A stretch of DNA of 64,000 bases, from assembly GCA_030432295.1 (NCBI GenBank), contig JAUIHI010000024.1, positions 1-64,000 on the forward strand. The letters are read 5' to 3'. Positions 56,745-62,042 of this stretch are shown here, one piece after another. The first letter of the stretch is position 1, and each line of letters opens with the position of its first letter. The notes below the pieces were generated by a model, which saw only the letters and a program-made list of their open reading frames with translations, ran no database searches and was not told where the DNA came from. The DNA is from Anaerolineae bacterium (lineage in GTDB: Bacteria; Chloroflexota; Anaerolineae; Caldilineales; Caldilineaceae). Position numbers and translations under genes: made by a program.

Positions 56745-58301
56745 CTATCCTCTGGACCAATTGAACCAGGCCCCGAAGACTTTCCCTACCGTCGGCGAAA
56801 GGCGGGTGCGGTTGTAGAGATCGCCCACCCGGCGGATGCTGCCCGCGACGGTCGGGTAGGGGTGAATCGTATCGACAATCGCCTTCAGCCCCAGATTGTG
56901 GGTCATTGCCAGGGTCAGTTCGCTGATAATCTCCCCGGCGTGGGGCGCTACAATTGTGGCCCCCAGGATTTTGTCGCTGCCCTTTGCCGTGTGGACTTTC
57001 ACAAAACCCTCGGTTTCGCCGTCGGCCAGCGCCCGGTCAGATTCGTCCAGGGGTACTTTGTAGGTGTCGATTTCGATGCCCTTCTCTTCGGCCTCGTGGG
57101 CATAGAGACCCACATGCGCGATCTCCGGATCGGTGTAGGTGGCCCAGGGGATGACCAGATCGCTGAACTTCTTCTTTGGGCCGGGGAAGAGCGCGTTCTG
57201 CAGAACGATGCGGGCGGAAGCGTCCGCAGTGTGGGTGAACTGGTATTTGATCGCCACGTCCCCGGCGGCATAGATGTCCGAGTTGGTGGTCTGGAGGGTG
57301 TCGTCCACTGTCACGCCTTTTTTGGTGTACTCCACCCCCGCAGCTTCCAGATTGAGGGAATCCACATTGGGCGTGCGGCCTGCGCCCAGCAGAATCTCGT
57401 CCACCTCTAACTCGTGGACTTCACCGTCCAATTCGTATAGCACACATTTGATGTCACCGGCGGATCGCACCTTCTGAATTTTGACCCCCAGCAGCATCTC
57501 TACCCCATCTTTCACCAGAGACTCCGCCACAATCTGGGCCGCGTCTTTGTCCTCGCGGATGAGAATTTGCGGCGCAATTTCCAGCAGCGTGACCTGCGTC
57601 CCCAGCCGCTGGAAGGTTTGGGCCAGCTCGCAGCCGATGGGTCCTGCGCCCACAATTGCCAGACGGCGGGGCTGTTCCGTTAGCTGGAAAAAGAGGCTCT
57701 CATTCGTCAGGTAGCCCGCCTCGTCCAGGCCGGGGATGGGGATTTTGGCGGCCCGGGAGCCGGTGGCGATGACGGCTTTGGTGAAGCGTAGCGTCTGGCG
57801 CTCTCCTGAGCCTGTCGAAGGGCCTTCCACTTCCAGCGTATTAGCGTCAGTGAATTGGGCCGTGCCAAAGAAGACGTCGATGCCCAAATCGGTGAAGCGC
57901 TGGGCGGAATCGGTCTTGCTCAGATCGGCCCGCACGCTGCGCATCCGGCGCATGACCGCCCCGAAGTCTACTCGCGGGGCGGTCTCCAAATGGATGCCGT
58001 AGCGCTCGGCCCTGGCGATTTCCCCCATCACTTTGGCCGAGCGGATGATCGTCTTGGAGGGAACGCAGCCGGTGTTCAGACAGTCGCCGCCCAAAATGTC
58101 CCGCTCGATCAGCGCCACCCGCGCGCCCAGCCCGGCTGCGCCCACCGCAGCAATCAGCCCAGCCGAGCCGCCGCCGATGACGACCAGATTGTAGCTGTCC
58201 GCCGCAATGGGATTGACCCAATCCGATGGATGGCCGTTGGCGAGCAGTCGGGCATTGAGTTCGTCATCGGGTAGGAGAGTGGGCAGGGCGTGGCTGGACA
58301 T
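56745..58301 (-). CDS. Mercuric-reductase-like FAD disulfide oxidoreductase
   Basis: 518 aa. FAD motif VIGGGSAGLIAA, redox pair in GGDCLNTGCVPSKT, second FAD motif ATGSRAAKIP, NAD(P) motif VGAGPIGCELA, YAAGDVA and the C-terminal HPYPTVAGS that completes the active site in the partner subunit. The vicinal Cys pair typical of MerA's C-terminus and an HMA domain are absent, so mercury reduction is doubtful; a general disulfide reductase is more likely. An in-frame insert EGPSTGSGERQ at about 57798-57829 replaces a short loop (next entry). AGGAG lies eight bases before the ATG. Confidence 0.85.
   Translation of the reverse strand: MSSHALPTLLPDDELNARLLANGHPSDWVNPIAADSYNLVVIGGGSAGLIAAVGAAGLGARVALIERDILGGDCLNTGCVPSKTIIRSAKVMGEIARAERYGIHLETAPRVDFGAVMRRMRSVRADLSKTDSAQRFTDLGIDVFFGTAQFTDANTLEVEGPSTGSGERQTLRFTKAVIATGSRAAKIPIPGLDEAGYLTNESLFFQLTEQPRRLAIVGAGPIGCELAQTFQRLGTQVTLLEIAPQILIREDKDAAQIVAESLVKDGVEMLLGVKIQKVRSAGDIKCVLYELDGEVHELEVDEILLGAGRTPNVDSLNLEAAGVEYTKKGVTVDDTLQTTNSDIYAAGDVAIKYQFTHTADASARIVLQNALFPGPKKKFSDLVIPWATYTDPEIAHVGLYAHEAEEKGIEIDTYKVPLDESDRALADGETEGFVKVHTAKGSDKILGATIVAPHAGEIISELTLAMTHNLGLKAIVDTIHPYPTVAGSIRRVGDLYNRTRLSPTVGKVFGAWFNWSRG
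57804..57822 (-). repeat. In-frame CCTTCGACAGGCTCAGGA repeat
   Basis: The minus strand reads CCTTCGACAGGCTCAGGA, a short sequence I know as a widely dispersed intergenic repeat in many bacterial genomes. Here it encodes PSTGSG inside a surface loop of the flavoprotein, between DANTLEVEG and TLRFTKAVIATGS, where relatives have only a few residues. Confidence 0.7.

Positions 58302-58658: not shown

Positions 58659-62042
<3,384 letters not shown>

Follow-up and report, generated by a model that had tools for sequence, protein, structure and literature searches.

Among the short repeats that resemble the feature described here are the SDRs of Nostoc punctiforme, which Elhai and co-workers (cited in PMC3116915) reportedly described in 2008 as units of 21-27 nt with a secondary structure supported by compensatory changes. 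They are said to nest in other repeats and in themselves, to have no known transposase, and to be confined to a cyanobacterial subgroup. A second point of comparison is offered by the GTAG REPs and REPINs with their RAYTs (PMC3733652, PMC3116915, PMC8266576), and in E. coli a bulge in the REP stem is needed for TnpA activity (PMC8266576). The CGTC REPs, some of which lie in genes, have been reported without a dedicated transposase; their families have 8-9 bp stems beginning with A-T pairs and a CCA-like tail, and RPE-4 and RPE-6 have been described as belonging to them (PMC3733652).

The window analysed here is a 64,000-nucleotide stretch of an Anaerolineae genome, in which a mercuric-reductase-like gene contains a repeat that is probably a copy of a mobile, non-autonomous micro-element of 24 bp, inserted in the reductase in an ancestor of two species of the window's genus. 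We describe this element as a REP/SDR-like mobile, frame-neutral micro-hairpin; neither its core sequence, nor the translations of this core, nor related cores were found described in the literature searched. The features of the reductase locus are as follows.

56745..58301, minus strand: host gene, a mercuric-reductase-like pyridine nucleotide-disulphide oxidoreductase by Pfam and PDB sequence match
57798..57821, plus strand (hairpin strand plus; gene read on minus): 24-bp mobile unit GCGCTCTCCTGAGCCTGTCGAAGG, with one mismatch to the genus consensus CCCTTCGACARGCTCAGGACANCGC
57806..57820, plus strand: conserved core CTGAGCCTGTCGAAG (other strand CTTCGACAGGCTCAG), a 15-mer also present in loci of many bacterial phyla
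57807..57810, plus strand: TGAG, 5' side of a putative tandem G.A mismatch helix; the TGAG/CGAA frame stays when the loop varies
57816..57819, plus strand: CGAA, 3' side of the same putative helix, in the same frame

The 17-mer CCTTCGACAGGCTCAGG, found once in the window at 57805-57821 on the minus strand, lies in frame within a 518-aa ORF (56745-58301), as the initial annotation had reported, and forms the core of the 24-bp unit GCGNTGTCCTGAGCYTGTCGAAGG (57798-57821). The bounds of this unit were defined by the 24 nt absent from reductase orthologues and, for other copies, by empty sites in nested or syntenic positions. The host protein carries the Pfam domains Pyr_redox_2 (1.5e-61) and Pyr_redox_dim (1.5e-31), its best PDB match by sequence is the mercuric reductase 5x1y (3.6e-83), and the redox motif CLNTGCVPSK is intact in its translation. 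In an AlphaFold model run on the alignment (mean pLDDT 90.7), the inserted residues are predicted to form a turn between beta strands 155-159 and 168-178, in line with the loop position initially proposed, and the block-mean pLDDT falls from about 94 to 68 at the insert. A reductase paralogue of 59% identity was also seen at G000:C39:32045-33555; it aligns as two separate matches, one of them containing a TAG, and seems to be broken.

Protein and codon alignments set LEV-EGPSTGSGERQ-TLRF in the window gene against LEV-DGQ-KLRF in congener G002, which G001 and homologues from other genera of the family resemble in lacking the insert. The comparison of orthologues thus upheld the claim that a repeat had been inserted into the gene, but the 11 residues (EGPSTGSGERQ) said to have been added come down to a net gain of 24 nt, or 8 residues, over the empty orthologues. 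Only one of the four congeners carrying the gene, G005, has the insertion, in a diverged form (EDPSTDSGQRQ); it is absent from the other three and from every other aligned homologue. Because G005 shares it, with substitutions, the insertion predates the split from that species. The reductase of G006, which has no 24-nt insert, carries its own perfect 18-nt tandem duplication at the same loop (L040, GCCAATTCTTTGGAAGTG), an event independent of the 24-nt insertion. The reductase insert is an old and probably neutral capture, and its eight added amino acids are apparently harmless.

Genome-wide counts confirmed that the motif is a dispersed repeat. The window's own genome (6.72 Mb, 61 contigs) contains 23 exact and 15 one-mismatch copies of the 17-mer, compared with 0 for the reversed control, which led us to reject a single-copy or chance match; dispersed copies and empty orthologues likewise led us to reject a conserved protein segment. 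The opposite picture, a single occurrence encoding residues conserved in distant homologues, was therefore contradicted on both counts. Aligned copies share the longer unit CCCTTCGACARGCTCAGGACANCGC, from which the window copy is off by one specified base, and units of the window type are mostly single rather than paired in this genome.

Empty sites could be read directly because many copies sit inside other dispersed repeats, the host repeats giving GTGAAT-unit-GGTGAAT, ACGCG-unit-GATTGGG, and GGCAAAAG-unit-AGGAAGGC. Congeners were searched using the flanks rejoined across the unit as the query, and orthologous empty sites of exactly 24 nt were found for six copies (L074, L079, L080, L082, L087, and L095), while three copies (L069, L082, and L084) are common to congeners at orthologous sites. 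The rejoined host repeat of L087 has many uninterrupted matches in G006, at about 93-95%. No target duplication was seen at unit insertions in either nested or syntenic empty sites, and the base following the unit is a purine in all 30 copies aligned (26 G and 4 A). At L075, one unit copy is nested in the loop of another, and in G002 a different 24-nt sequence with a TTGAG...CGAAA frame lies within the L081 copy. Taken together, these results show precise insertion of the 24-bp unit, with a purine always following and no duplication of the target, other repeats and the unit itself being among the targets. With empty sites of exactly 24 bp in close relatives, the movement of this micro-element is cleanly documented, although no transposase was found alongside it. 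A palindromic host repeat (AGGACGCAGATGACGCGGAAA ... TTTCCGCGTCATCTGCGTCCT) was observed to bear the unit in its loop at L070, L086, L090, and L096. Targeting to host palindromes was rejected, given that only about five of the 30 copies are at such sites.

Copy numbers differ widely between genomes. The 15-mer occurs in 78 of 301 genomes of the phylum, where the reversed control gave about 10 matches in all, and reaches its highest count (268) in G277. A second genome, G153, holds 222 copies, compared with 2 and 0 in its genus-mates G255 and G286, and counts of the 17-mer range from 3 to 123 within the window's genus. Such unevenness is the pattern of bursts. Inverted pairs at a 52-nt spacing were found in G278 and G315. 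Active spreading, as suggested initially, thus fits the family, given the empty sites in congeners and bursts such as that in G153, but the reductase copy is not a fresh one, being shared with G005 and predating a speciation.

The repeat had also been called intergenic; dispersed it is, but not only between genes, since 10 of the 30 copies examined sit in frame in Pfam-bearing ORFs. These comprise UxaC, AP_endonuc_2, ATP-grasp, a glycosyltransferase, two PMT, ABC, SLT/TPR, and RecG proteins, together with the window reductase. The 24-nt unit has a stop in only one of its six frames, and with five frames open and a length divisible by 3, in-frame capture is expected, so that the in-frame position is not telling in the way that had been assumed. 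The in-gene copies are mostly translated as LRQAQD, otherwise as PSTGSG/LSTSSG or FDRLR. The unit illustrates how peptides can be added to proteins in a simple way with the frame kept. All ten are oriented alike with respect to the gene, with CCTTCGACA on the sense strand (L002, L003, L009, L013, L019, L022, L023, L024, L027, and L030). With the open frames split into three sense and two antisense, ten identical orientations would arise by chance with a probability of about 0.006; this bias could reflect selection or a transcription-linked process.

The 15-mer core extends well outside the phylum, as CTTCGACARGCTCAG was found in named genomes of at least the Proteobacteria, Bacteroidetes, Actinobacteria, Chloroflexi, Cyanobacteria, Armatimonadetes, and candidate-phyla lineages. 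Among the cross-phylum matches listed (164 occurrences), the three bases flanking CTTCGACARGCTCAG on each side are complementary in 92, 85, and 53% of cases, where shuffling gives 41, 33, and 38%. Of 16 closing pairs that are not C-G, 12 are complementary. The short stem around the core thus covaries across phyla with the tip unchanged (STATISTICALLY), and beyond the stem there are often clade-typical tails, for example CGAACGG or TGACA. In viral contigs, comparing matched and mismatched closers by number of matches is uninformative, and a flank test was used instead. Among the matches listed, two further pairs are complementary in 55 of 131 cases with C-G closers and 39 of 119 with G-C closers, compared with 13 of 100, 7 of 109, and 3 of 107 with mismatched closers; T-A closers gave a weak signal (15 of 103). 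When loops other than CYTGT were counted, with the frame's own reverse complement set aside, CTGAG...CGAAG with GA opposite GA was the commonest (24, compared with at most 6 for unrelated dinucleotide pairs), in loci chosen for holding the core, where variants may be decayed neighbours. In DNA, a TGAG/CGAA frame would favour tandem sheared G.A pairs.

A second family in the window's own genome, GTTGAGCYTGTCGAAAC, in which the closing C-G is replaced by T-A, gave 37 pattern matches compared with 3 in the control and includes many inverted pairs at a constant 57-nt offset. These pairs often lie inside longer shared sequence (in G000, for example L353, L357, and L378), and some single copies are in apparent ORFs (L364 and L376). 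The closing stem in the window's genus is only about 1-2 bp, and an Rfam search returned nothing relevant. Since the 24-mer alone has no stable fold under ViennaRNA DNA parameters (-0.9 kcal/mol, z 0.43), the hairpin in this genus rests on cross-phylum covariation and on the second family. It is this complementarity across phyla, together with the swap of C-G for T-A in the second family, that leads us to read the unit as a REP/SDR-like mobile micro-hairpin.

The likeness to SDRs lies in the size of the unit, exactly 24 nt and dispersed, in its nesting in other repeats and in itself (L075), and in the compensatory changes that support its secondary structure in the cross-phylum stem, the second family, and the viral contigs. 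It is a likeness of the features reported for SDRs, and whereas SDRs are said to belong to one cyanobacterial subgroup, the present core crosses many bacterial phyla. With GTAG REPs and REPINs, the unit shares a short hairpin, a putative stem mismatch, and some copies in genes; inverted pairs at fixed spacing were seen in G278, G315, and the second family, and the window-type unit is mostly single in its own genome. However, in the 30 aligned copies, which start with GCGNTGTCC, the hairpin has neither GTAG nor GTGG at its 5' foot. The Y1_Tnp loci examined include no RAYT with copies on its flanks, and some copy-rich genomes have no Y1_Tnp match. As for the CGTC REPs, no associated transposase was found, a likeness that concerns Y1_Tnp only; the consensus differs from their description (PMC3733652) in having neither a CGTC head, nor A-T first stem pairs, nor a CCA tail. 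Rickettsia palindromic elements (RPE) are alike in their in-frame and often tolerated insertion in protein genes, but by description RPE-4 and RPE-6 are CGTC families, whose features the unit does not share, and RPE-1 is longer. A broader reading, which we hold tentatively and judge slightly more doubtful than likely, is that the core marks a third super-family beside the GTAG and CGTC REPs. This super-family would be present in many phyla, with TGAGCYTGTCGAA as its invariant 13-nt tip, a tandem G.A mismatch, a covarying stem, and a clade-specific tail; it would be moved by an enzyme reading folded single-stranded DNA or by an RNA route, and would have a 24-bp frame-neutral form that adds peptides.

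For the mobile micro-element, we propose that the tip of the CTGAG...CGAAG strand would form a hairpin containing two G.A mismatches side by side (TGAG/CGAA), that the folded single-stranded DNA of this tip would be recognised by some enzyme, and that the recognised unit would then be copied into new sites. Selection would retain only tolerated insertion sites, such as surface loops. The 3n length and five open frames allow the unit to enter genes without breaking them.

A classical REP or REPIN moved by a RAYT (TnpA-REP), which cuts a folded single strand beside the hairpin and pastes copies elsewhere, is one alternative. The strand-specific hairpin with an internal mismatch recalls E. coli REPs, the inverted pairs at constant spacing (52 nt in G278 and G315, 57 nt in the second family) resemble REPINs, and many of the genomes encode Y1_Tnp proteins. 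A search for Y1_Tnp (PF01797) genes covered the window's genome and 22 relatives with the motif, and the 57 loci fetched showed no flanking motif copies, only stray single matches at 2 to 4 mismatches. The loci of the window's own genome and of the first relatives had no copy at 0-2 mismatches to the consensus and one match at 3 mismatches, and the 20 loci of the richest genomes gave one 2-mismatch match only (L319), single and about 800 nt from the gene match. Furthermore, a purpose-built HMM detected no Y1 ORF across the 118 motif loci from various phyla (0.87 Mb), and no Y1_Tnp match was obtained in three motif-rich genomes, G277 (268 copies, 95% complete), G153 (222 copies, 100%), and G070 (54 copies, 97%). 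With 57 Y1 loci free of flanking copies, no link in the HMM survey, three motif-rich genomes without a Y1 match, and a genus unit without a GTAG or GTGG head, mobilisation by a RAYT was ruled unsupported and appears improbable, although a Y1 enzyme may once have been present and since been lost. The cross-phylum core offers a handle on what spreads short palindromic repeats without a RAYT.

Spread without any dedicated enzyme is an unlikely alternative that we nevertheless take seriously; here, microhomology at hairpins would prime template switching and gene conversion as DNA is replicated or breaks are repaired. The purine, mostly G, at each insertion point overlaps the G-rich end of the unit, the tandem duplication in G006 arose independently at the same reductase loop, and some copies occupy the loop of a host repeat that is a long palindrome; yet the ends of the unit are exact across unrelated targets, bursts in single species suggest a specific activity, and palindromes account for only a minority of the insertion sites. 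An RNA intermediate of the kind put forward for cyanobacterial SDRs would involve short transcripts that are reverse-copied or serve as templates at breaks, and the 24-nt size, the nesting in other repeats and in the unit itself, and the absence of a nearby transposase fit the traits reported for SDRs. The shared orientation of all ten in-gene copies is what a transcription-linked process could give, but selection could also yield this bias, and we consider the RNA route distinctly unlikely. Virtually no credence is given to the idea that the insert consists of ordinary selected reductase residues whose DNA match is coincidental: the length of the loop does vary among distant homologues too, but the unit departs from the genomic consensus at a single specified position and the insert is missing from three congeners and all other aligned family members.

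The initial annotation had joined the reductase insert with two others in the neighbouring carB gene as three captures pointing to one mechanism, a grouping that did not hold.

60182..60269, plus strand: carB linker A, with GGGGCGAG-type and AATTCGCAA-type repeats in frame, not the 24-bp element; other repeats lie there in congeners
60639..60683, plus strand: carB linker B, with a GGCAGACGGCAGAC-type repeat in frame, not the 24-bp element; variable, and absent in some family members

Both carB inserts are real and repeat-derived, but they consist of simple repeats other than the 24-bp unit and lie in variable linkers. The two linkers are filled differently in congeners and several family members (with SPVPSPQSP, ISQSPNLP, and similar stretches), and some relatives have little or nothing there. 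Because different repeats occupy them in congeners, these linkers mark tolerant places rather than the mechanism of the 24-bp element. The carB linkers also appear to be a hotspot at which this core enzyme gains peptides from repeats, the kind of insert differing from congener to congener.
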